DNA of 64,000 bases, taken from positions 62,001 to 126,000 of the forward strand of contig SCTK01000006.1 of the NCBI GenBank assembly GCA_004298905.1, in the 5' to 3' direction. Origin of the DNA: Burkholderiaceae bacterium (GTDB taxonomy: Bacteria; Pseudomonadota; Gammaproteobacteria; Burkholderiales; Burkholderiaceae_D). A program made the position numbers and the translations under genes. How positions within the stretch are numbered: position 1 is the stretch's first letter; every line of letters begins with the position of its first letter. This document shows, in pieces, positions 18,015 to 31,586 of this stretch. The notes under the pieces are model-generated. The model was given only the letters and a program-made list of their open reading frames with translations, was not told the origin of the DNA and did no database searches.

Positions 18015-19103
18015 CTACCCGCGCACTGGCTTGGCCAGCCCGCGTCTCAGGTGATGCAATACATGCGCAGCAATCTCCTGCAAGGGCAGTGTCTCGTGCA
18101 CTGCACCGACAGCGATGGCTTCCCGTGGCATGCCAAACACAACACAACTTGCTTCATCCTGCGCCAGGTTGTGGGCGCCCGCCTGACGCATTGCCAACAT
18201 GGCTTCGGCACCGTCCTTGCCCATCCCGGTCAGCATGATGCCAACGACCGGCCCCTGAGCATTTTCCGCCACGGAGCGGAACAGGGCCTCCACCGAAGGC
18301 CGGTGGCGATTGACCGGGGGTGCATCGGACAGACCGGTCAAATACTCCCTGCCCCGGCGCCGCAAGAGCAGATGCAGCCCGCCGGGGGCAATATAAGCAT
18401 GTCCGGGCCGGATGACCTCACCGTCCTCTGCTTCCTTAACGGCGATCTTGCATAGATTATCAAGCCTCTGGGCAAAGCTTTTTGTAAAACCGACCGGCAT
18501 GTGCTGCGTGACCAATATCGGCGGACTATCGGTCGGCAGGCGCATCAGAACATCCTTGATCGCCTCGGTACCGCCGGTCGATGCGCCGATGGCGATCAGC
18601 GATTCGCGGCTGGCGGCCGCGTTGCCGACATTGGGCAGGACACCGCCTGCCTCGGCGGGAGCCACCACCCGATTTGGCTCGGGACGGCGTACAAAACGGG
18701 TACGCGCCTGGTAGGCGGCCCGAATCTTGTCTGCCATGTGTTCGGCATAGTCGAGCATCCCCCCGTTAACACCCGCCTTGGGTTTGGTGACAAAATCGAC
18801 GGCCCCCAGTTCCAGCGCACGCATGGTGCTCTCCGCCCCGCGTTCGGTCAGACTGGATACCATGATCACCGGCATGGGGTGGGCGCGCATCAGGCGCTCC
18901 AGAAAATCCAGGCCATTCATGCGCGGCATTTCAATATCCAGCGTCATCACGTCCGGCATGGCTGCGTGAATTTTCTCCCGCGCCTCGTAAGGATCATTGG
19001 CCGTCGCAACCACCTGCATGTCCGGCTGCGCGTCAATGATGCGCGTCATCAGACTCCGAATCAGTGCCGAGTCGTCAACCACGATAACCTTGATTTTTCC
19101 CAT
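18015..19103 (-). CDS. cheB: Chemotaxis protein-glutamate methylesterase CheB
   Basis: A 362-residue CheB with an N-terminal receiver ([11 protein letters not shown]56 in [15 protein letters not shown]) and a C-terminal methylesterase with the catalytic triad S175 (GASTGGTEA), H201 (TQHMPVGF) and D297 (GMGKDGAEA). It demethylates and deamidates chemoreceptor glutamates when phosphorylated by CheA, giving adaptation. It lies downstream of cheR and cheD, separated from cheD by an unknown gene. Confidence 0.95.
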
Positions 19104-19168: not shown

Positions 19169-19708
19169 TTACTTGCGCATTCCGCGCAATATCTCCCCCG
19201 TCACCAGATGCGACAGCGGTTCCCATTTTTCCTGCACCACTTCATCCGTATTGGCCTTGACCGGCGGACGCATGCCCGGGTTATGCAACAAACCGGCCAC
19301 ATAGCATTCGCTGATATCGACCACGATCTTGCGAGCCCAATGCCGCTGCTGCAAGGCGGGCGTGCCCGCCAACGCGACCACACCCACCAGCATGGGCAGA
19401 TTGAACAACGGCACCGCGACATAGGCCAGGCTGCCATGACCGAACAGACCGCTGATGCTGTCCTGCAAGGGGATATGCTGGATCAGCCCATCTTCACAAT
19501 GCAGCAAAGGTTGCACGAAATCACTCAATTCATTGTGCCGGATCCCCGACTCCTTGCGATAATTTTCGTGCAGCACACCACCGCAATACTGTCGCAATTC
19601 AACGCCCAGCAGCCCGGGCTGGTCCGCCATATGCTGACCAAAGGTATCGGCCACAACTCCTTTGAAAGCCGGATCGCTGCACAACCACTCACTGCATTTG
19701 CAATTCAT
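19169..19708 (-). CDS. Uncharacterised protein in the chemotaxis operon
   Basis: A 179-residue soluble protein with a Cys-rich start (MNCKCSEWLC), then a mixed alpha/beta body (GLLGVELRQYCGGVL, LFGHGSLAYVAVPLFNLPMLVGVVALAG) that resembles a small sensory fold such as GAF, though I cannot assign it. GAGGT lies 4 bases before the ATG at 19708. An upstream in-frame extension to 19819 would overlap cheD and is disfavoured. Placed between cheD and cheB in one transcript, it may be an accessory chemotaxis or sensory protein. Confidence 0.65.
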   Translation of the reverse strand: MNCKCSEWLCSDPAFKGVVADTFGQHMADQPGLLGVELRQYCGGVLHENYRKESGIRHNELSDFVQPLLHCEDGLIQHIPLQDSISGLFGHGSLAYVAVPLFNLPMLVGVVALAGTPALQQRHWARKIVVDISECYVAGLLHNPGMRPPVKANTDEVVQEKWEPLSHLVTGEILRGMRK

Positions 19709-19754
19709 TCTGACCTCGTTCCGATTCAAAATATTGCCGCACCTGCATGCCCCG

Positions 19755-20369
19755 TTAGAACAGTTCCACCTCACCCTCCAACCGGGTCTGACGCAATTGT
19801 TTGTCATACACACGCTCACGTTCCATCAGCGTGCGGTTATGCAGGCTGCGCAACTTTTTCACCAGGACGCGGCCAGTAGCAGTAAAGAAATACACCTTGC
19901 GTGGCCACACATCCAGTAAATCGCTGCCAATAATGGCGATGCCTTCCTGTTTCAGATAGTCCTGTACGAAAGCGCAGTTACGGCCACCGACATTCAAATG
20001 GGTAAACCCTTCCGTGACGTTCGCACCGCCAAACACCTTGGCCCGCACCTGATCTTTTTGCGCGCCCAGTTTGAGCATCTGATTGATCAGTACCTCCATC
20101 GCATACACGCCGTAGCGGGCCGGCATATCAATCACTTCAGCAGTTTCCCTATCGCCCAGCTGCGGCAGCATGAAATGGTTCATGCCACCCACCTTGGCCC
20201 GCGCATCCCAGAGACAGGCAGAAACACAGGAACCGAGCACCGTTACCAGCAACATGTCGCGTTTGCTGGCGTAGTATTCGCCGGGCAGAATCTTGGCGGC
20301 GTCCAGGTCGAAACGCCGGTCGTGGTAGATGTTTGGCGCCGGGTGCGCCACACAGTCATCGCCCATCAT
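19755..20369 (-). CDS. cheD: Chemoreceptor glutamine deamidase CheD
   Basis: A 204-residue CheD with the catalytic pair C48 (VLGSCVSACLWD) and H65 (GGMNHFMLP) and the conserved KVFGGANV segment. It deamidates specific Gln residues of chemoreceptors and in some systems binds CheC. The start overlaps the cheR stop by 4 bases. The C-terminus ends GEVELF, identical to the tail of the chemoreceptor encoded at 27529-28905, which hints at a common docking partner. Confidence 0.93.
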   Translation of the reverse strand: MMGDDCVAHPAPNIYHDRRFDLDAAKILPGEYYASKRDMLLVTVLGSCVSACLWDARAKVGGMNHFMLPQLGDRETAEVIDMPARYGVYAMEVLINQMLKLGAQKDQVRAKVFGGANVTEGFTHLNVGGRNCAFVQDYLKQEGIAIIGSDLLDVWPRKVYFFTATGRVLVKKLRSLHNRTLMERERVYDKQLRQTRLEGEVELF

Positions 20370-21259
20370 GAACGGCCCCGCATTTCACGGAAAGCGGCGT
20401 CGGGCAACACCTGATAAATCGTTTTGCCCAGCAGTTTGAATGGCACACCGGCATGCGTGAAGCTTTCGGAATGCCCCACAAACAGCAGACCCTCCTGATT
20501 CAGCAAAGGCGCAAAGCGGCTCAACAGCCCCATCTGCGTGGGCTTGTCGAAATAAATCATGACATTGCGGCAGAAGATCATGTCGAAGCCCGGCCGCACG
20601 CGCCAATCCGGCGCCAGCAGATTGACGGCACGGAACGACAGCAACCGTTTCACTTCATCGCGAATGCGAATCTGACCGTCCTGCGTTCCCTTGCCGCGCA
20701 GAAAATAACGCTGGATCTGCGGCATGCCCACCTTCTTCACCTGCTCTTCCGAATACACGCCGCGCTGGGCCGTTTCCAGCACATGCGTGTCGATATCCGT
20801 CGCCAGAATCCGCACTGGCGGCGTCTCACTGCCAAACGCCTCCATGGCGGTGATGGCAATGGTGTAGGGTTCCTCGCCGGTTGAAGCCGCACAGCACCAG
20901 ATGTTGATCTCGCGACGCGGCCGTTGCTGCGCCAGTGTCAGCAGGGTTTGTTTCAGATAATCGAAGTGATGGCTTTCGCGGAAAAACGAAGTCAGATTGG
21001 TGGTCAGGGCATTGACGAAGTATTCCCACTCGGGTGCCTGCGGGTAATCAAGCTGACGCAGATAGGCATCAAAGCTTTCTGCCCCCGTGATGCGCAAACG
21101 CCGCACCAGGCGGCTGTACACCATGCTGCGTTTGCTGTCGGCGAGGGAAATCCCGGCAACCCGATAGATCAACTGCTTGACGCACTGGAAATGCTCGGCC
21201 GTGAATTCGAATTCACTCTGCAGTTCCAGAATTGCCGGACGTCGATTCGAGGCTGACAT
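20366..21259 (-). CDS. cheR: Chemoreceptor methyltransferase CheR
   Basis: A 297-residue CheR: N-terminal helical domain (LIYRVAGISLADSKRSMVYSRL in two parts), then the SAM-binding domain with WCCAASTGEEPYT, VRILATDIDTHVLETA, and FDMIFCRNVMIYFD. It methylates receptor glutamates from S-adenosylmethionine. The larger receptor in the same operon ends EWEEF, resembling the NWETF-type pentapeptide that tethers CheR. Coupled to cheD by a 4-base overlap. Confidence 0.95.
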   Translation of the reverse strand: MSASNRRPAILELQSEFEFTAEHFQCVKQLIYRVAGISLADSKRSMVYSRLVRRLRITGAESFDAYLRQLDYPQAPEWEYFVNALTTNLTSFFRESHHFDYLKQTLLTLAQQRPRREINIWCCAASTGEEPYTIAITAMEAFGSETPPVRILATDIDTHVLETAQRGVYSEEQVKKVGMPQIQRYFLRGKGTQDGQIRIRDEVKRLLSFRAVNLLAPDWRVRPGFDMIFCRNVMIYFDKPTQMGLLSRFAPLLNQEGLLFVGHSESFTHAGVPFKLLGKTIYQVLPDAAFREMRGRS

Positions 21260-21344: not shown

Positions 21345-24300
21345 TTAGAACTCTTCCCACTCATCGTCGCCGCTGCCGACGGGCGCCAAGACCGGCGGCT
21401 TCACCGCCGTCTTGAGCAGAACGTTTGGCTTCGTACTGGACAATGCCGGGCGCTGCGGCTTCGGTTGCGCCGGGGGCAGCCCTTGCTTGACCCGGAAGAT
21501 CGCCACCATGCGCGCCAGCCGTTGCGATTGTTCGGCCATCGATTCAGCTGCCGCCGCGGCCTCTTCCACCAGCGCCGCATTTTGCTGGGTCACTTTGTCC
21601 ATTTGGGTAATGGCGTCATTGACTTGCTCGATGCCGCTACTTTGCTCAACCGAGGCATTGGTGATGTCTTGCATGATGTCGGTGACGCGTTTGACCGAAG
21701 TGACGATTTCACTCATGGTCTGACCCGCCTGATTCACCAGTGCGCTGCCCGACTCGACCTTCTGCACTGAATCACTGATCAGCCCCTTGATTTCCTTGGC
21801 GGCGTTGGCGCTGCGTTGCGCCAGACTGCGCACCTCGCTGGCGACCACGGCAAAGCCGCGGCCCTGCTCGCCGGCACGTGCGGCTTCCACCGCAGCATTG
21901 AGCGCCAGGATATTGGTCTGGAAGGCGATGCCGTCGATCACGCTGATGATGTCGACAATTTTCTTGCTCGACTCGCTGATCGAATTCATGGTGCTGACCA
22001 CTTCGCCCACCACCGCACCACCCTTGCTGGCAATCTCGGAGGCCGAGTTCGCCAATTGATTGGCTTGCCGCGCATTGTCGGCATTCTGCTTGACCGTCAC
22101 CGTCAACTCTTCCATGCTGCTGGCGGTTTCTTCCAGGCTGCTGGCCTGCTCTTCGGTACGCTGCGACAGATCGGCGTTGCCGGTAGAAATTTCTGTCGCC
22201 GCTGAATTGATGGCTTCGGCTGCTTCGCGAATCTGACCGATGATTTCCGCCAGCTTGGCATTGGTTTCGTTGGCATCGTCCTTGAGCTTGGCAAAGGTGC
22301 CGGAAAATTCCTTGTCGATGTCTTGCGTCAGATCGCCCTGCGCCAGACCACCCAGCACGCGCACCACTTCGTTCAAACCAATTTCATTGGTTTGCAGGAT
22401 CTGGTTCATGCCATGGGCCAGTTCGAGGAAGAAACCTTCCTTGCCCTGCACTGCGACACGTTTGCTGAAATCGCCGGAGGCGGCCGCGCTGACAATATCG
22501 GCAATCTCGTTTTCCATACCCACCTCGACGGTGCGATCCAGCCACTCGATCACCGTACCCAGGCGTTGGCCCTGAGTGTCGACGATCGCGTTGGTCTGAA
22601 TGCGGAACGTGAGGTCGCCCAGTTGAATCTCGCTGCGCTGCGCCTGGCACAGGTTGGCAAGCATGCTGCCGGACTGGCTGCCGCTTTGATACAGCGCATC
22701 GAAATGACTGCCGCGAACCTTGGCCGCAGCAAAGCCTGGCAAGGCGTTGCGCAGGCTGCTCTCGCGCGTCTGCATTAACGCATTTGCGGCATCGTTCAGA
22801 TATTGCACCGTGCCGGTATTGTCGACCACCATGATATTGACCGAAGCATTGTCGAGGGCAATCTTGATTTTCAGGGTCTCGCGCGCGTCCTGTTCGGCCT
22901 GCTGCATCTTGAGACGTACCACTTCAGCGGCTTCGGAAATTCGTTTTTTCTCGCCCGGCAGATCGTCCATGACGCTGGAAAAATCACCATTGCTGTACTG
23001 GCCAACCAGATCGACAAATTTTGCGTTGATGGCAATATGCTCACCCACCATCTGGTTGACGTTGGCCGCCATGTCGCGATAGGCGCCGGTGAATTTCTCG
23101 TCCGGCATGCGATGCGAGATCACACCCGTTTCGTTGTGCGCCAGCGCCATGTCCAATTGCGCCTGCACAAAACTTCTCAGTGTTGCGATCATCTGATTGA
23201 CCGCATTGGCTACATCGCGTAACTCATCGCGCCCGGAAAACTGCACGGTTTCCGTGGCATCGCCGGCAGCCACCCGCTGCGTGGCTTCGCGAATCGTGTT
23301 CAAGCCACGGCGTACCGCCAGCAGCATGCCGGCGAACAGGTAAGCCAGGACGACCAAAGTGGCAAGCGTGCCATACAGGGCCAGGTGTTTCCGGCGGCTG
23401 TCGGCGGCGACGCGCTGCTCCAGCAAGCGGCCCAGTTGCTGCGCGCCCACGTCAAACAAGGCATAGGCCGCATCCACCACTTGCGAACCGGCCTTGAAAT
23501 AATCGGCGGCATCCAGTTTCTTCACTTCGCCCTTGACCAGCTTGTCGAGCATTTCATTGTTGAATTGGTTGGCAGCCTTCACCACGGCCTCCTTGCCAGC
23601 CTCCATCGAAGCCTTGATGGCGGGCGTTACCTGAATCGCCTTTTGCAAACCGCTGTCCAGGGCCTTCGACTCGCGTTCGAACAGCTGACGCTGTACTTTC
23701 AGATTGGCGTAACTTTCCTGATCGATCTGACCGCTCTTGATGATGCCGCTGCCCATGCCGCGCAGGCGGGCAGCGTACTCAGCCATGGCCGGCAGGCGGT
23801 TGACCACCGCATCCATCACATAGTAGGAAGCCAGTTCCGGATCCAGTGTCAGGTTGGAAGCATCGGCGGACTGGCTGACATAGGCAAACAAGCGATCCAC
23901 CAGTGCGTTATGCCGGGTCCAGTTCTCTTGCGCGTTCATGGTCTTGCCAACCACCTTCAAGGCATTCCAGTCGTTGTGAATTTCCGTCAGGCTCTTGGCT
24001 GTTCCGAAGCTGGCGCCGTATTGCTTGTCCGCCGACTCCAGTGCGGCCAGGGCCTTGTCCGCTTGCGCTTCGATCTGATCCAGTTTGGTTGCCAGCGCCG
24101 GGTCGCGCGTCGCCGCATTCAGATACAGCTGGCTGGTGCCGCGATGCGCCTGCACCAGCGGCAGCACGCCTCGTGCCCCCGCCACCAGGGGCACGCCCGC
24201 ATGTTCCGTTTCCGTAAACACAATGCTCTCATTGAGACGGTCAAACAAATACAGCGTCAACGCCAGCATGGGCAGTGCAAATATCAACCCGAGCAGACCA

Positions 24301-24371
24301 ATCTTTTTTGGAAAGGTCAAACGATCCATCACGCCCACAGCGGGGGCAAAAATTCCGGCAACTACCGACAT
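21345..24371 (-). CDS. Large methyl-accepting chemotaxis protein (sensor - HAMPs - PAS - MA)
   Basis: A 1008-residue receptor. TM1 lies at about 22-45 and TM2 at about 328-352, enclosing a helical periplasmic sensor of some 280 residues. HAMP-type repeats follow, with a PAS domain near 500-600 ([15 protein letters not shown]), another HAMP-like unit, and a methyl-accepting domain whose tip reads [20 protein letters not shown]. The C-terminus ends DDEWEEF, an xWxxF-type pentapeptide likely to tether CheR/CheB. GGGAGAG precedes the ATG. It is the main receptor of the operon; the ligand is unknown. The PAS domain may add redox or cytoplasmic sensing. Confidence 0.9.
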
Positions 24372-24442: not shown

Positions 24443-24940
24443 TCAGGCCGCCATCGCTTCTGCTTCATCGACCAGCGCCATCTCGCTGCTGCCGAGCAAT
24501 TTCTCGATATCGACGAGAATCAGCATGCGCTCGTTGATCGCACCCAATCCCTTCAGATAGCGGGTATCGAAACTGCCGGAAAATTCCGGCGCCGGACGAA
24601 TCTGTTCCGGCGTCAGCGCCAGGACATCCGACACGCTATCGACCACCACGCCGATGACGCGCTGGTTGACGTTGAGTACGATCACCACGGTGAATTGATC
24701 GTAAGTCGGCTCGCCCAGATTGAACTTGATGCGCAGGTCGACAATCGGCACGATGACGCCGCGCAGGTTAATGACGCCTTTGATGAAGGCGGGCGCATTG
24801 GCAATGCGTGTCACTGCGTCGTAGCCGCGAATTTCCTGCACGCGCAGGATGTCCAGCCCGTACTCTTCTGTCCCGAGGGTGAAGGTCAGGAACTCATGGT
24901 TTCCTGACGCCATGCCCGCTGTCCCATTGATTTCGTTCAT
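24443..24940 (-). CDS. cheW: Chemotaxis coupling protein CheW
   Basis: A 165-residue single CheW domain ([57 protein letters not shown]). It bridges receptor tips and CheA in the signalling array. About 15 hydrophobic-poor residues extend the C-terminus. It lies 45 bases after cheA and upstream of the large receptor gene. Confidence 0.95.
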
Positions 24941-24985: not shown

Positions 24986-27052
24986 TCAGTGGCGGCTGCG
25001 CTTCACCAGTGCATTCACATCCAGAATCAGCGCCACCCGGCCATCGCCGAGTATGGTGGCCCCGGACACGCTGGGGACACGGCGGTAATTGCTTTCCAGA
25101 TTCTTCACCACCACTTGCTGCTGGCCGACCAGTTCATCCACCAGTAATGCGGTCTTGACACCTTCGGCTTCGATGATGACGGCGATATCGATCGCATCCG
25201 CTTTGCGCTGCACCTGAAATGCCGTACGCAAATCCAGCACCGGCAAATATTCCTGCCGCACCTCGATCACATTGCCGTGGCCGGAAATCGAACGCACCTG
25301 TTCCGCGCGCAGGGGAATCGATTCGATGACGCTGGCCAGCGGCAGCACATACACCTCGTCGCCCAGCGCCACCGACATGCCATCCATGATGGCCAGCGTG
25401 AGTGGCAGGCGGATCGTGACCTTGCTGCCCATGCCGGCGCTGGAATCGATTTCGACGCTGCCGCCGAGACTCAGGATGTTGCGCTTCACCACATCCATGC
25501 CGACACCGCGGCCGGACACATCGGTGACGGCATCGGCGGTGGAAAAACCGGGGGCGAAAATAAGATTCCAGACTTCCGTATCGGTGGCTTGATCGGCAAT
25601 CGCCAGCCCGCGTTCGCGTGCCTTGGCAATGATCTTGTCGCGCCGCAAGCCGCCGCCATCGTCACTCACTTCGATGACAATGTTGCCGCCGCGTTGCGCC
25701 GCACGCAGAGTGATCGTGCCCACATCGGGCTTGCCGACCTGCCGACGCACCTCGGGCAGTTCAATGCCGTGATCCAGCGCATTGCGCACCAGATGCGTGA
25801 GGGGGTCGGTAATTTTTTCGATCAGACCCTTGTCGAGTTCAGTACCCTCGCCCAGGGTTTTCAATTCCACCTGCTTGCCCAACTTGGCCGCCAGATCGCG
25901 CAACATGCGCGGAAAGCGATTGAACACATTGGAGATCGGCAGCATGCGGATGCCCAGCACCGATTCCTGCAAATCACGCGTATGCCGCTCCAGATCGGTC
26001 AAGGAAGAAAACAGTTGCGGGTGCGCACCCGCATCCAGTCCCATGACGTTTTGCAACAGGCCCGCCTGGGTGATGACCAGCTCGCCCACCAGGTTGATCA
26101 GCTGATCCACTTTTTCCACGCTGACGCGGATCGAGGCTTCCTCGGCCGCCTTGCGGGCAGCGGGTTTGGCCACTGGCTCAGATTGATTGGAGGCTGCCAC
26201 CGGCGCTGAGGCTGCTACCGCAGCGTCCACTATTGCAGGCAGCGCCGGCGCGTCGAAGAAACCATAGCCGTTATCGTCCACCGGCGCGGCGGCCGCGGCA
26301 TGGAACAAGCCATAGGCTTCGCTCACGGCTTGCGCCTGGTGCGCGGTGTCCACCGGCGTGACGGTCGTCCCTTCGATCGACAGCATGAAATTGATCAAGG
26401 CGGGTAATTCTGTGACCGGGTCTGCTGTCGTCAAGCGCAGATGCAAGGCACCGTCTCGACCGCTCTCCGGCGCTTCATCCAGCACGCCAAACGTCCGCAA
26501 TTCGCCGAGAAACCACGCCTGCTGTTTTTCTTCCAGCGTGCCACCGGGCAAGGGCACGATAATGCGCCAGGTGATTTTGGATGACTGCGGCGCCATGCCC
26601 TGCGCGTCCGGCGCCCGGAACTCTGCTGCAGCGGGATCGGCCAATGCCTTTAAACGGGCCTTCAAGGCCGTGGTATCCGGCGTCTCGGACATGACACCGT
26701 CGCGGCGGCAATCCAGTTGCTGGCGTATGGCGTCGCCGGCTTCGAGCAGCGTGTCCACCATCGCGACGGTCATTTCCAGTTCGCGATTGCGCACCTTGTC
26801 GAGCAGGTTTTCAGCTTCGTGGGTGAGGTCGGCAATTTCCTGCATGCCGAAGGTGGCGCTGCTACCTTTGATCGAGTGCGCGGCGCGGAAAATCGCATTC
26901 ATGACCTCGTGGTCGAAGGTCAGCAGGTCCAGTTCGAGCAGCAGCGCTTCCATGCTGCGCAAATGCTCGTAGGATTCTTCAAAGAAAACCTGATGAAACT
27001 GGGACATGTCGAACTGTCCCGCTTCCAGCCCGCTCCCTGGATCGTGATTCAT
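24986..27052 (-). CDS. cheA: Chemotaxis histidine kinase CheA
   Basis: A 688-residue CheA: an N-terminal Hpt domain with phospho-His H59 (AAHSIKGSSATFG), a linker with a P2-like region, the dimerisation domain from about residue 310 (IRVSVEKVDQLINLVGELVITQA), an ATPase with LVRNALDHGIE, DDGGGL and the GRGVGMDVV loop, and a C-terminal CheW-like domain. It phosphorylates CheY and CheB and is likely to serve the other receivers of this region too. Full length for the family. Confidence 0.96.
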   Translation of the reverse strand: MNHDPGSGLEAGQFDMSQFHQVFFEESYEHLRSMEALLLELDLLTFDHEVMNAIFRAAHSIKGSSATFGMQEIADLTHEAENLLDKVRNRELEMTVAMVDTLLEAGDAIRQQLDCRRDGVMSETPDTTALKARLKALADPAAAEFRAPDAQGMAPQSSKITWRIIVPLPGGTLEEKQQAWFLGELRTFGVLDEAPESGRDGALHLRLTTADPVTELPALINFMLSIEGTTVTPVDTAHQAQAVSEAYGLFHAAAAAPVDDNGYGFFDAPALPAIVDAAVAASAPVAASNQSEPVAKPAARKAAEEASIRVSVEKVDQLINLVGELVITQAGLLQNVMGLDAGAHPQLFSSLTDLERHTRDLQESVLGIRMLPISNVFNRFPRMLRDLAAKLGKQVELKTLGEGTELDKGLIEKITDPLTHLVRNALDHGIELPEVRRQVGKPDVGTITLRAAQRGGNIVIEVSDDGGGLRRDKIIAKARERGLAIADQATDTEVWNLIFAPGFSTADAVTDVSGRGVGMDVVKRNILSLGGSVEIDSSAGMGSKVTIRLPLTLAIMDGMSVALGDEVYVLPLASVIESIPLRAEQVRSISGHGNVIEVRQEYLPVLDLRTAFQVQRKADAIDIAVIIEAEGVKTALLVDELVGQQQVVVKNLESNYRRVPSVSGATILGDGRVALILDVNALVKRSRH

Positions 27053-27120: not shown

Positions 27121-27486
27121 TCAGCCCAGCACTTTGCGCACCACCTCCACCAGCTTGCCCGGATCAAACGGCTTGACGATCCAGCCGGTCGCGCCAGCGG
27201 CCTTGCCACTGGCTTTCATGGCATCGCCCGCCTCGGTGGTCAGCATCAGCACCGGTGTGGTTTTGTATTGCGGCAGGCCGCGCAGCGCCTTGATCATCGA
27301 CAACCCATCCATGCGCGGCATGTTCTGATCGGTCAGCACCAGATCAAAGTTTTTGTTCTTGAGTTTCTCCAGCCCATCGTGTCCATCGGCAGCCTCGGTC
27401 ACTTCATAGCCCGCCCCTTTCAGGGTGAAGGACACCATTTGCCTGATCGAAGCGGAATCGTCTACGGTTAATACGGATTTGCTCAT
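27121..27486 (-). CDS. cheY: Chemotaxis response regulator CheY
   Basis: A 121-residue lone receiver with DD (residues 9-10), phospho-acceptor D53 (LTDQNMPRMDG), T83/T84 and K105 (IVKPFDP). It carries the phosphoryl signal from CheA to the flagellar switch. GGGAGG lies 5 bases before the ATG at 27486, excluding an upstream in-frame start. It is between cheA and the CheZ-like receptor gene, the place where cheZ is often found. Confidence 0.92.
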   Translation of the reverse strand: MSKSVLTVDDSASIRQMVSFTLKGAGYEVTEAADGHDGLEKLKNKNFDLVLTDQNMPRMDGLSMIKALRGLPQYKTTPVLMLTTEAGDAMKASGKAAGATGWIVKPFDPGKLVEVVRKVLG

Positions 27487-27528: not shown

Positions 27529-28905
27529 CTAAAAGAGTTCAACCTCGCCACTCTGCATGCTGGTTTGTGAAACGGTGACCGATTTACCCGAGTGCAGTGC
27601 GTTGATCCCACCGCCATTCATGTCACCCGACGCTGCAAACCCTGTGTTGTGGTCAGTACGGCTATCCAGTCGTTGCAAGCCCGTTTTATCGGCAGTTTTG
27701 CCCATAACTTGAGATGTCGACAGGGATTCCTTCTGCGCTGGCTGGAACGAAGAGGCCTTTGATCCCGGGTTTCGCTGACGCCCACCTTCACCGGACATCG
27801 CGGGTCCGGACGCCAATTGCGACAGATTGCTCAGCATCTCTCGCATGCCTGCCAGACGCTTGGCAATCTGCCCAGACAATTGCACGCAAATATCCTGGAA
27901 CTGCAATGCCATCACGGAGCGATTGACGTGCGAACCTATTTCCTCGGCAATGTTGTGAATGCTGTCGGCGTCCTGCGCAATCTTTTGATTAACGTTGCGG
28001 ATCTGCGCCATGGTGTCCTGCGCCAGCTGCTTGGACTGAAATGCGGAGGCCATGTCGTGCGAAGCCATTTGATTGATTACGCCTTCGGCCGACTGGATGG
28101 CGTCGTGAATCATGCCGATGTCGTTGCGGATCTGATTGCTGAAATGGCTGGTGCGTTCGGACAGTGAACGTACCTCATCGGCGACCACCGCAAAACCGCG
28201 CCCTGCGTCTCCCGCGCGCGCAGCTTCGATCGCCGCGTTCAGCGCCAGCAAATTGGTCTGCTTGGAAATGGCTTCGATTTCCTGCAGGATCTTGAGCGTC
28301 TTGCGCACCTGCTCCTTGACCGAATCCATTTGATCGACCAGACCCATTGCGCTTTTGCTGCTGTTGATCGAACTGTCCAGAAAGGTGTGCATCAGCTTAC
28401 TGATCTCTTCGATAAAACTTTCGAAACTGCTGCCGGGTTCAGCACCATGATCAGTGCCGCCCGCCTTGGCCTGTGCCCCCTGGGCAATTCCCATCGCCAG
28501 CGCCTGCTGCTGCGATGACAGGCTCTGCTGGCTGCCAAAGCTGGCAATCAATTGCGACCCGGCATCTTCGATCAACTGCTGCATCTGATTCATTTCGCTG
28601 CTCACGCAATCGAGCTGCTGTGCAAAGCCGGTTTCATATTCCTGCAGTTTGCTGGTCAGCGCCGCATGCTGCTGCACCCCGGTTTCGTTGCAAAGCTGCG
28701 CCAGCAAGTTTTCATAACCGGTGGCGAGAATCTTTTCCGCCAACACCAAACAAGTCACACTCAAAATCACCACCGCAGGCAGCGCCGACCACACCCCCAG
28801 CTCCAGCAGCCAGCCGGCCAAAAGTGAAATCGCTAACGCCAGACAGGCGCTCACCCCGACCAGCACTCTCCATTTGCTCATTGGTACACTGCTTTGCGCG
28901 TTCAT
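27529..28905 (-). CDS. Chemoreceptor-like protein with CheZ-like DxxxQ helix
   Basis: A 458-residue protein with two close N-terminal membrane helices (about 15-62), no real periplasmic domain and no HAMP. A methyl-accepting-type coiled coil follows with tip [19 protein letters not shown]. After it comes [13 protein letters not shown], in which D338 and Q342 have the DxxxQ spacing of the CheY-P phosphatase CheZ (FQDLTGQ). The disordered tail ends GEVELF, as in CheD. Being first in the operon and next to cheY, with no cheZ in the window, it may combine receptor scaffold and CheY-P phosphatase. AGAGGAAA supports the ATG at 28905. That activity is inference. Confidence 0.82.
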
Positions 28906-28991: not shown

Positions 28992-29010
28992 GTGCTTGAG
29001 ACGGTTCTCC

Positions 29011-30957
29011 ATGCCTGACAACCCCGTTGCCCCTACCTCTATGACACCCGCCGGCCCGCCGCTGCGCGTGCTGATGATCGAGGATTCTGAAACCGATTAC
29101 GAACTGATCCTGATCGACCTGCGCCGGGACGGCAGCAAGATCGAAAGCGTGCGCATTGAAGAGGAAGGACCCTTTCTGAGCACCCTGCGCAGCCAGCGTT
29201 GGGATGTGATCCTGTCCGACCACAATTTGCCGCGTTTCAGTTCGCGCCGGGCACTGGAATTACTCATGCAGGAGCAGCGCGACATTCCCTTTCTGATCGT
29301 GTCCGGCACCATCGGCGAAGATCACGCGGTGGATGCCATGCTGGCGGGGGCCGACGACTATGTGATGAAAGGCAGCACGCGCCGCCTGCGCCCGGCGATC
29401 GACCGCGCCATCAAGGCCGCCGAACACCGCCAGCAGCAACGTCACGCCGAACAGGCGCTGCAAGACAGCCTGGAACGCCTGGAAACACTGGTCGCCGCTT
29501 CGCCGCTGGCGATTGTGGTGGTTGACGAGAGCCACCGCGTCTCGGTCTGGAACCAGACGGCCGAACGCATGCTCGGCATACCGGCCGCGCTGGCCCAGGG
29601 ACAGGTGCTGGAACATGCGCGCGAACCGCTGCTGCGCGAAATCAATCTGTTCTACCGGCAACTGCGCATCGGCCAACATCTGGTCAATTTCTCTGCCCTG
29701 CTGGAGCGCCCGGATGGATCACTGGTCGATATCAGCGTCACGGCCGCGCCACTCCATCGCGATGAGAGTGGTGAATCGGTCGGCATGGTCGCCTTCATCG
29801 CCGACGTCACGGAGCAACGCCGCCTCGAGCAGGCGCGGCAGGAAAATGAAATCAAGCTGTCGGCGATTACCTCCAACCTGCCGGGTGTCGTATTTCAGAT
29901 TTTGTTCCATCTGGGCGAACGTTCGGTGATGGTGCCCTATGTCAGCGAAGGCGCGCACCAGTTGTTTGGTATCAGTGCCGATGAATTTTCCAAACAACCC
30001 TTTACTCTCACCTCACTCCTCAGCCCGACTGATCGCGAACAATTCCGCGAAACCCTGGCGCAGGCAGCGGCCAGCGGCGATACTTTCCGCTGGCAGGGAC
30101 GCATCTTCCCAGCCGGACAGCATGCGCGCTGGCTCTACTTCGCCGCCTCGCCGCGGCCGCTGGTGATGGATTACACCGTCTGGGACGGCATCATCATCGA
30201 CATTACCCAGCAAAAATCGGCGGAAGAGTGGCTGCAAGCCTCGCAAGATGAATTGCGCGCGCTATCGGCACACATGGAACAGGTCAAGGAAACCGAGCGT
30301 GCCGACATCGCCCGCGAAATTCACGACGATCTGGGTGGCACCATGACCAAACTCAAAGCCGATGTGCTGCGGCTGCGCAAACGGCTGGCGAGCCTGACCA
30401 AGGAAATCGACCCTGCGGCGGGCAATGAATTGGAAACCACACTGGTGGATATGCAGGGCTTGCTCGATCATGCAGTGGCCTCGACCTCGCGCATCGCGCG
30501 CTCGCTGCGTCCGGCGATTCTCGACCTCGGCATTGTGCCGGCGCTGGAATGGGAAATCGGCGAATTCCGCCGCCGCACCAGTCTCCGTGTCAATTTCACC
30601 TGCAATCTGGAAGAACTCGAACTCGGCAAACAAGCCGCCACCGTGATTTACCGAGTGGTACAGGAAGCGTTAACCAATATTCTCAAACATGCCCAGGCCA
30701 AACGCGTCGATGTCGAACTGTTTGCCACCGACGACCGCATCACGCTGGAGATTCACGACAACGGCATCGGCATTGACGCCAAGTCACTGACCAAGCCCAA
30801 TTCCTTCGGCATTCGCGGCATGACCGAGCGAGCGCGCATTCTGGCCGGCTGGATGGATGTCAGCAGCGCGCCGGGCAAAGGCACGACACTGATGCTGTCG
30901 ATCCCGCGAATGATGGATAATCCGTCCTCCGAACTCTCCTCGCGACCGCAACCATGA
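29011..30957 (+). CDS. REC - PAS - PAS - HisKA_3 sensor histidine kinase
   Basis: A 648-residue soluble kinase. It opens with a receiver (LMIEDSETDYELI; acceptor D in LSDHNLPR; VMKGS), then two PAS domains (about 150-270 and 285-405). The HisKA_3 dimerisation domain has H438 in ADIAREIHDDLGG, and a NarX/DesK-type ATPase ends in DNGIGI and GIRGMTERA. The N-terminal receiver makes it able to take a phosphoryl signal from another kinase. It is coupled by a 4-base overlap to the NarL-type regulator. The ATG at 29011 is preferred to a TTG 15 bases upstream. Confidence 0.88.
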   Translation: MPDNPVAPTSMTPAGPPLRVLMIEDSETDYELILIDLRRDGSKIESVRIEEEGPFLSTLRSQRWDVILSDHNLPRFSSRRALELLMQEQRDIPFLIVSGTIGEDHAVDAMLAGADDYVMKGSTRRLRPAIDRAIKAAEHRQQQRHAEQALQDSLERLETLVAASPLAIVVVDESHRVSVWNQTAERMLGIPAALAQGQVLEHAREPLLREINLFYRQLRIGQHLVNFSALLERPDGSLVDISVTAAPLHRDESGESVGMVAFIADVTEQRRLEQARQENEIKLSAITSNLPGVVFQILFHLGERSVMVPYVSEGAHQLFGISADEFSKQPFTLTSLLSPTDREQFRETLAQAAASGDTFRWQGRIFPAGQHARWLYFAASPRPLVMDYTVWDGIIIDITQQKSAEEWLQASQDELRALSAHMEQVKETERADIAREIHDDLGGTMTKLKADVLRLRKRLASLTKEIDPAAGNELETTLVDMQGLLDHAVASTSRIARSLRPAILDLGIVPALEWEIGEFRRRTSLRVNFTCNLEELELGKQAATVIYRVVQEALTNILKHAQAKRVDVELFATDDRITLEIHDNGIGIDAKSLTKPNSFGIRGMTERARILAGWMDVSSAPGKGTTLMLSIPRMMDNPSSELSSRPQP

Positions 30958-31586
30958 TCCGTGTTTTCATTACCGACGACCATGCCATCGTGCGCAAGGG
31001 TCTGCGCCAGATTGTCGGCGATCATCCCGACATGCAGATCGTCGGCGAAGGCGAACACTACGCCGACCTCTCGCGCTCGATGCGCCAGATCGATTTCGAT
31101 GTGCTGCTGCTGGATATTTCCATGCCGGGCAAGAATGGCATCGAAATTCTCAAACTGGTCAAACAGCACAAGCCGAATGTCCATGTGCTGATGCTGTCGA
31201 TGTATCCAGAAGATCAATACGCCGTGCGTGCGCTGAAAGCCGGTGCCTCCGGTTATCTGAACAAGAACAGCGCGCCGGAAAAACTGGTGGAAGCGATCCA
31301 GACCGTGGCCCGCGGCAAGAAGTACATCACGCCGGAGTTGGCAGAATCACTGGCCATGCATGTCGCCGAAGACACCACCGGCCTGCCGCATGAGAAATTA
31401 TCCGATCGTGAATTTCAGACGCTGCGTCTGATCGCTGCGGGCAAGAAACTTTCGGAAATCGCCGAAGAAATTGCGCTGTCACCGAAAACCGTCAGCGTCT
31501 ATCGCGCCCGCATCATGGAAAAAATGAACATGAGCAACAATTCGGAATTGATTCACTACGCGATGAAACATGGTTTGGTGGAGTGA
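30954..31586 (+). CDS. NarL/FixJ-type response regulator
   Basis: A 210-residue regulator: receiver with DD (8-9), D54 (LLDISMPGKNG), K in GYLNKNS, and a C-terminal LuxR-type helix-turn-helix (LSDREFQTLRLIAAGKKLSEIAEE, then LSPKTVSVYRARIMEKM). It should bind DNA when phosphorylated by the kinase encoded just upstream, whose stop it overlaps. Target genes are unknown; the flanking motility genes are candidates. Confidence 0.93.
   Translation: MIRVFITDDHAIVRKGLRQIVGDHPDMQIVGEGEHYADLSRSMRQIDFDVLLLDISMPGKNGIEILKLVKQHKPNVHVLMLSMYPEDQYAVRALKAGASGYLNKNSAPEKLVEAIQTVARGKKYITPELAESLAMHVAEDTTGLPHEKLSDREFQTLRLIAAGKKLSEIAEEIALSPKTVSVYRARIMEKMNMSNNSELIHYAMKHGLVE

Follow-up and report, generated by a model that had tools for sequence, protein, structure and literature searches.

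The E. coli chemotaxis machine has been traced to F7 systems, and the McpA-like receptors, e.g. CttP/McpA/PA0180 of P. aeruginosa and VCA1088 of V. cholerae, belong to the ancestral F7 clusters (PMC7184735). In the part of that work available to us, a transmembrane region is predicted for these receptors and no heptad class is assigned to them; the role of their conserved C-terminus, which lacks the CheR pentapeptide, is called "important yet unclear". They are dispensable for the F7 array, and an association with the F6 array was reported. The genomes of stages 1 and 2 of the same scheme have cheY in both clusters and cheZ only with F6 (PMC7184735). According to the accessible text of a second study, VCA1088 is of class 24H and is the subject of no experimental reports, and McpA/CttP of P. 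aeruginosa acts in trichloroethylene taxis and clusters with F6 proteins (PMC7534058). The accessible portions of both papers call McpA-like proteins receptors of unclear role and mention no phosphatase motif. The literature that we searched, which lay short of full texts, subscription papers and supplements, contained no statement that these proteins are phosphatases.

The action of CheZ on CheY-P involves the insertion of Gln147, which orients a water molecule, and the pairing of an acidic side chain with the receiver lysine; in the CheY-P phosphatases CheC, CheX and FliY, the inserted residues are an acid and an amide (PMC3035606, available text). In CheZ, the sequence AXXFQ lies beside the phosphatase motif DXXXQ, and both are conserved (PMC7750401, available text). 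A further DXXXQ CheY phosphatase, CheT of Sinorhizobium/Agrobacterium, is not significantly homologous to any known chemotaxis protein and is described, in the portion of the source at hand, as complexing with CheR (PMC12654446).

We analysed a 64,000-nucleotide stretch of DNA (referred to as the window) of a Burkholderiaceae bacterium, which contains a chemotaxis gene cluster of the order czm-cheY-cheA-cheW-mcp-cheR-cheD-cheB, without cheZ, located on the (-) strand. The first gene (27529..28905, start ATG at 28905) encodes a 458-aa receptor-like protein, named CZM here. Both this ORF and its adjacency to cheY had been noted in a preliminary description of the region and were confirmed: cheY (27121..27486; 121 aa, PF00072), whose product is the proposed substrate of CZM, lies directly downstream. 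It is followed by cheA (24986..27052), encoding a protein with Hpt, H-kinase_dim, HATPase_c and CheW domains, cheW (24443..24940; PF01584), mcp (21345..24371), cheR (20366..21259; PF01739 and PF03705), cheD (19755..20369; PF03975, 105.5 bits) and cheB (18015..19103; PF01339 and PF00072). The mcp product, the partner receptor, contains three HAMP-type matches, PAS matches below the cut-off, and the end DDEWEEF, which fits the CheR-tether pattern given in the accessible part of PMC7184735. In its gene content, the cluster fits the F7 gene lists of the same source. A 216-aa ORF between cheD and cheB (19169-19819) shows no Pfam match at E≤0.001 and is a doubtful gene. Beside czm, the genes of a receiver-PAS histidine kinase and a NarL-like regulator (28996-31586) are divergently placed; similar kinase/regulator genes adjoin the family gene in three further loci (L011, L012 and L090), which hints at a conserved regulatory link.

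The source genome (2.48 Mb, 26 contigs) contains three CheA dimerisation-domain matches, nine MCPs and a single CheZ (PF04344, 240.9 bits), the latter encoded on contig 11, where cheV, cheY and a second cheA are its neighbours. A search of the whole genome for CheC (PF04509) gave no match. The absence of ordinary cheZ and of cheC from the window, as described earlier, is thus borne out. The suggestion that CZM stands in for an absent cheZ is refuted, since the whole-genome search found a full cheZ. This gene, a finding which the preliminary description itself had named as counter-evidence, refutes the replacement of a missing cheZ, not the idea that CZM works like CheZ.

A Pfam search of CZM revealed a match to MCPsignal (PF00015; 105.8 bits, residues 183-323). 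The near-invariant residues 207-249 (28159..28287, (-) strand) constitute the tip region of the MCP hairpin, presumably the site of contact with CheA and CheW, as in MCPs generally. An input domain together with HAMP is usual, not universal, in MCPs; in accordance with the preliminary description, the search detected no HAMP and no ligand-binding or PAS input domain in CZM at E≤1, and the NCBIfam matches were far below the cut-off. The two membrane helices proposed earlier would find room in a hydrophobic stretch of residues about 11-62 (28720..28875), with 19-residue Kyte-Doolittle means of 1.4-2.3 throughout, which forms part of a continuous run of ~55 hydrophobic residues (about 10-64); a break between the two putative helices, at residues 37-38, is suggested by a low-confidence model only. 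The C-terminal part of the protein consists of a helix carrying the motif discussed below, a poorly conserved segment of ~75 residues (about 370-440) and a conserved tail. A search of PDB sequences with CZM gave strong E-values for MCP structures only. The two structure models obtained are of low confidence (pLDDT 53 and 59). A fold comparison (VIA-align) retrieved helical bundles, designed and generic, as well as a single ligand-binding domain of an MCP (2yfa); CheZ was absent among the 50 matches listed, which excludes nothing.

A membrane region and an MCP domain, encoded beside F7 core genes, are common to CZM and the McpA-like receptors, and the last five residues of CZM, EVELF, agree with the McpA-like C-terminus, which has valine as its second residue and is no CheR pentapeptide (PMC7184735, accessible part). 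The relatives of CZM mostly end with G[DE][IV]ELF. In context and tail, the CZM family agrees with the McpA-like F7 receptors, PA0180 and VCA1088 being compared by description. A relative in Vibrio sp. (L126) is encoded in an F7-type cluster, in which its gene comes after mcp, a CheD-like and a CheB-like gene and before a gene for a receiver-like protein; this order is much as PMC7184735, in the text available, describes for stage 1.

CZM contains the sequence QFQDICVQ (residues 335-342), in which D338 and Q342 show the DxxxQ spacing of CheZ, as noticed in the preliminary description. The complete AxxFQ-DxxxQ signature (codons 333-342; 27880..27909, (-) strand) has its counterpart in CheZ (PF04344; E. 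coli CheZ, PDB 1KMI). Hydrophobic residues at positions -2, +1, +5 and +6 from the Asp are also common to the two proteins, and both then carry a conserved C-terminal peptide ending in F. In contrast to CheZ, CZM shows no PF04344 match at E≤1 (Pfam search), combines a membrane stretch with an MCP signalling hairpin, and ends with GEVELF, whereas the CheZ tail is of the type VDDLLxSLGF. CZM as CheZ proper was rejected, because it fails the PF04344 profile test. The term "fused", used previously, is not supported: Pfam detected no separate CheZ domain, and the motif lies in the receptor's own C-terminal helix.

The insertion of an acid and an amide residue proposed for CZM would be shared with CheC/CheX/FliY (PMC3035606, available text); these proteins form a separate Pfam clan (PMC10542144, available text) and their amide residue is Asn, whereas CZM would use Gln. 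Compared with the CheC-CheD pair, the link of CZM to CheD is just a common C-terminal peptide. CheT is of the same DXXXQ type as CZM and, in the portion of PMC12654446 at hand, is not described as an MCP; the two are likened by description. CheT thus offers a precedent for a genuine CheY phosphatase that is marked by DXXXQ and has no homology that could be recognised.

We examined the conservation of the motif among the relatives of CZM. D338, Q342, Q335 and F336 are each present in 75 of 75 aligned family members, CZM included (matches below 110 bits were dropped, and five members of a second branch, with 154-172 bits, were kept). Outside the MCP tip, the near-invariant features of CZM are few: the motif, F123, D284, A115, A281 and I259. 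Besides the window, the motif was present in all 29 loci examined of class-level relatives. The family loci obtained from the phylum search (L147-L175), a few of which repeat genomes already counted, contain LQF or MQF-x-D-xxx-Q and end with ELF or DLF in 29 of 29 cases. The signature [AS]xxF[QE]DxxxQ had 133 matches in 5,007 ORFs (1.14 million residues), i.e. 98 family members, 35 CheZ proteins (33 distinct) and none elsewhere; only the last count is informative, because the scanned loci were fetched around the CZM family and CheZ. All 98 family matches scored at least 139 bits against the family profile, and 97 had the family-type end. Judged from these alignments, the CZM motif is conserved far beyond chance.

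Two of the nine MCPs of the source genome, CZM and a paralogue on contig 11, carry the signature. The paralogue (L003, G000:C11:129575-130372), which lies beside peptide ABC transporter genes, contains SLQFEDIAQQ and has the tail SGSVDLF. It shares 35% identity with CZM over residues 95-361 and is encoded ~10 kb from the flagellar-type che genes, including cheZ.

The near-invariant MCP tip, the presence of cheR, cheD and cheB in the cluster, and the designation of McpA-like proteins as receptors in the accessible literature would all suit an ordinary orphan chemoreceptor, in which LQFxDxxxQ is a structural or adaptation element (e.g. a contact with CheD, CheB or CheR) and the likeness to CheZ results from convergence. 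We consider this improbable: Pfam found no ligand domain or HAMP in CZM, its C-terminus lacks the CheR pentapeptide, and the pattern [QDE][FY]xDxxxQ behind the tip was absent from all 42 further MCP frames of these gene neighbourhoods (with a recognisable tip in 40, and at least 100 residues behind it in 37).

In a comparison of profiles, an alignment of 60 columns (P 0.0068; probability 5.6%) placed CheZ in register with CZM at the motif. The score of 27.2 was reached by none of 100 shuffles; it fell to 18.8 with the motif masked, and the reversed profile gave 24.2. An MCP control profile, whose input produced a format warning, scored 17.0 in the same comparison. Since masking lowers the score and the reversed profile nevertheless comes so high, we regard the local likeness of CZM to CheZ as strong, and this weak profile comparison as falling short of establishing global homology.

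According to hydropathy calculations with eight window/period settings covering the motif, the angular distance from the hydrophobic side of the motif helix is 127-179 degrees for D338 and 139-178 degrees for Q342. These residues can be assigned to its polar side only roughly, because I339 is found at 79-130 degrees, and a calculation over residues 310-335, ending before the motif, puts D338 at 82 degrees. A second conserved patch lies in the N-terminal cytoplasmic helix (28507..28563, (-) strand), with F123 conserved in 100%, A115 in 96%, Q133 in 89% and L119 in 87% of 75 sequences. We propose that this patch may pack against the motif helix.

The C-terminal tail of CZM (residues 444-458; 27532..27576, (-) strand) ends with GEVELF, and F458, G453 and L457 are conserved in 100%, 92% and 88% of 75 sequences, respectively; the tail of the second branch ends with FF. 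The last six residues of CZM (27532-27549) are identical to those of the window CheD (19758-19775). Among 30 CheD loci, the strict tail pattern was found at the very end of CheD in 7/12 cases in genomes with the CZM family and in 9/18 without it; when one extra residue was allowed (by reading rows), the values were 12/12 and 12/18. The idea that GEVELF is specifically a CheZ-like CheY-binding peptide is weakened by the occurrence of the same tail on CheD proteins, also in genomes without the family. Because it is found on CheD as well as on a coiled-coil protein ending with SGDDIELF, the tail seems to be a tag by which these proteins dock to one and the same partner, which may be CheY. The coiled-coil protein (L183 and L184, with a relative in L205; frames of 599-638 aa) is not an MCP. 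It contains MQYDDISSQ and matches Pfam CheZ weakly, below the cut-off (E 0.0058), and is possibly another hidden CheZ-like protein.

A tail peptide that suggests docking, together with the invariant polar D and Q, which would suit a binding surface, may be read as signs that the motif merely binds CheY-P or some other receiver and catalyses nothing, so that CZM captures CheY at the array. Binding alone hardly explains why an acid and an amide should be invariant at the CheZ spacing and accompanied by AxxFQ, and we consider mere capture unlikely.

Relatives of CZM at E≤1e-30 were found in 52 of 200 order-level genomes, and matches to the family profile at E≤1e-40 in 85 of 369 class-level genomes. 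CheZ is also present in 51 of the 52 family-bearing genomes of the order sample and, at E≤0.001, in 79 of the 85 of the class sample (78 of them over the cut-off); the remaining six have no CheZ match. These proportions indicate that the family normally exists beside CheZ, and a role as a general CheZ substitute was rejected in both samples. The CheZ match below the cut-off (E 6.5e-5; genome G210) coincides in position with the family protein, the gene of which contains internal stops. The phylum search identified 41 genomes of other classes matching the family at E≤1e-30. CheZ (PF04344) exceeded the cut-off in 0 of the 37 that were re-searched (all except G613, G616, G691 and G712) and gave weaker matches in four, divergent CheZ being able to escape PF04344. 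The family members of these classes have open frames of 331-371 aa in 31 of 37 cases, and the matches mostly start past the membrane part; one of the sequences (L153) was read. The distribution fits a phosphatase of a second pathway, able to occur on its own as well, with the proviso that divergent CheZ may be missed.

The order czm-cheY-cheA on the same strand is conserved in 21 of 21 neighbourhoods (the window and 20 order-level loci). No ORF was seen between czm and cheY in 18 of them and one in the other three (L082, L083 and L093); since the listings skip unmatched ORFs of less than about 120-150 aa, the next gene means here the next gene seen. Genes of the second branch (L128, L143-L146), with the motif LQFQDRxxQ, lie directly upstream of cheY in 5/5 loci. 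Two further loci of this branch differ, with cheY on the other strand (L207) or no che gene (L208). Eighteen of 21 wider loci are placed in che clusters and three outside them (L129, L131 and L134), as are the family genes of L202 and L204. The family genes outside che clusters, including L208, and the paralogue beside transporter genes speak against the reading of CZM as a phosphatase for the adjacent CheY. The ordinary cheZ of the source genome, the tail held in common with CheD and the reported role of McpA/CttP in trichloroethylene taxis and its clustering with F6 proteins count on the same side. When 42 neighbourhoods were compared with the CheZ of the source genome, the only ones in which a CheZ was seen were L085 and L095, both adjoined by a cheV-cheY-cheZ-cheA cluster.

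The CheY proteins of the window type are uniform in sequence. In CheY numbering (D57, Y106 and K109), the window CheY has N at D+2, E at T+2 and W at the position of Y106. Rows were assigned to CheY types by best match, not by adjacency: those of the window type share D57, W and K109, together with N at D+2 and E at T+2, in 35/35 cases (34 distinct), T being replaced by S in a single row. In the CheZ-linked type, represented by four rows (3 distinct), position 106 is always Y.

Another receiver might be the substrate of such a phosphatase, i.e. the flagellar CheY, CheB, or a receiver-like protein of ~570 aa encoded behind the family gene in many clusters. A protein of the last kind, matched by the 319-aa regulator of the window, follows the gene in L082, L083, L126, L136, L141 and L191-L193, and McpA was reported to occur with F6 proteins (PMC7534058, accessible text). 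In the loci L191-L198, from other classes, cheW precedes the family gene, and the gene of a receiver-like protein of 565-694 aa comes after it. As the next gene seen is cheY in the window and in 17 other order-level loci, we consider it very improbable that CZM acts on one of these other receivers.

Taken together, these findings favour a phosphatase that belongs to the second (F7) pathway. Judging from sequence and gene context, CZM is probably a CheY-P phosphatase built on a chemoreceptor (MCP) scaffold and acting on the adjacent F7 CheY. The preliminary description of a receptor-like phosphatase may therefore be retained in part: a receptor scaffold with a conserved CheZ motif, tied to the cheY of a cheZ-less cluster, is consistent with it; its premise of a missing cheZ is abandoned, and that of a fusion finds no support. 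Because its relatives keep the CheZ signature, the "receptors" of the CZM family are probably signal-terminating enzymes.

The following mechanism may be envisaged. The MCP hairpins would dimerise into a four-helix bundle, with D338 and Q342 pointing outwards near its membrane end, where CheY-P would dock. D338 would then meet the active-site lysine of CheY, and Q342, like its CheZ counterpart, would insert its amide and so position the attacking water molecule. The segment of residues about 370-440 and the terminal GEVELF may tether CZM to a hub of the pathway, which would be either CheY or a different F7 component to which CheD also binds, and the receptor-type tip would place the phosphatase at or beside the array. 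The ordinary CheZ of the source genome would serve the other, flagellar-type CheY.

A wider proposal can be put forward only tentatively, and we think it possible rather than probable. The McpA-like "orphan receptors" may constitute a separate class of MCP-scaffold CheY-P phosphatases residing in arrays, whose activity is set by the state of the array or by CheD. CheD and the phosphatase would compete for one hub through the same docking peptide, as a Gram-negative counterpart of the CheC-CheD pair of Bacillus, and CheZ and the McpA-like proteins may share a helical-hairpin ancestor.

If CZM is indeed a phosphatase, a CheZ-type active site would give the McpA-like receptors a job and the F7 pathway a phosphatase of its own. 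Annotation by the MCP domain would then hide a family of enzymes, whose profile is matched in 85 of the 369 class-level genomes.
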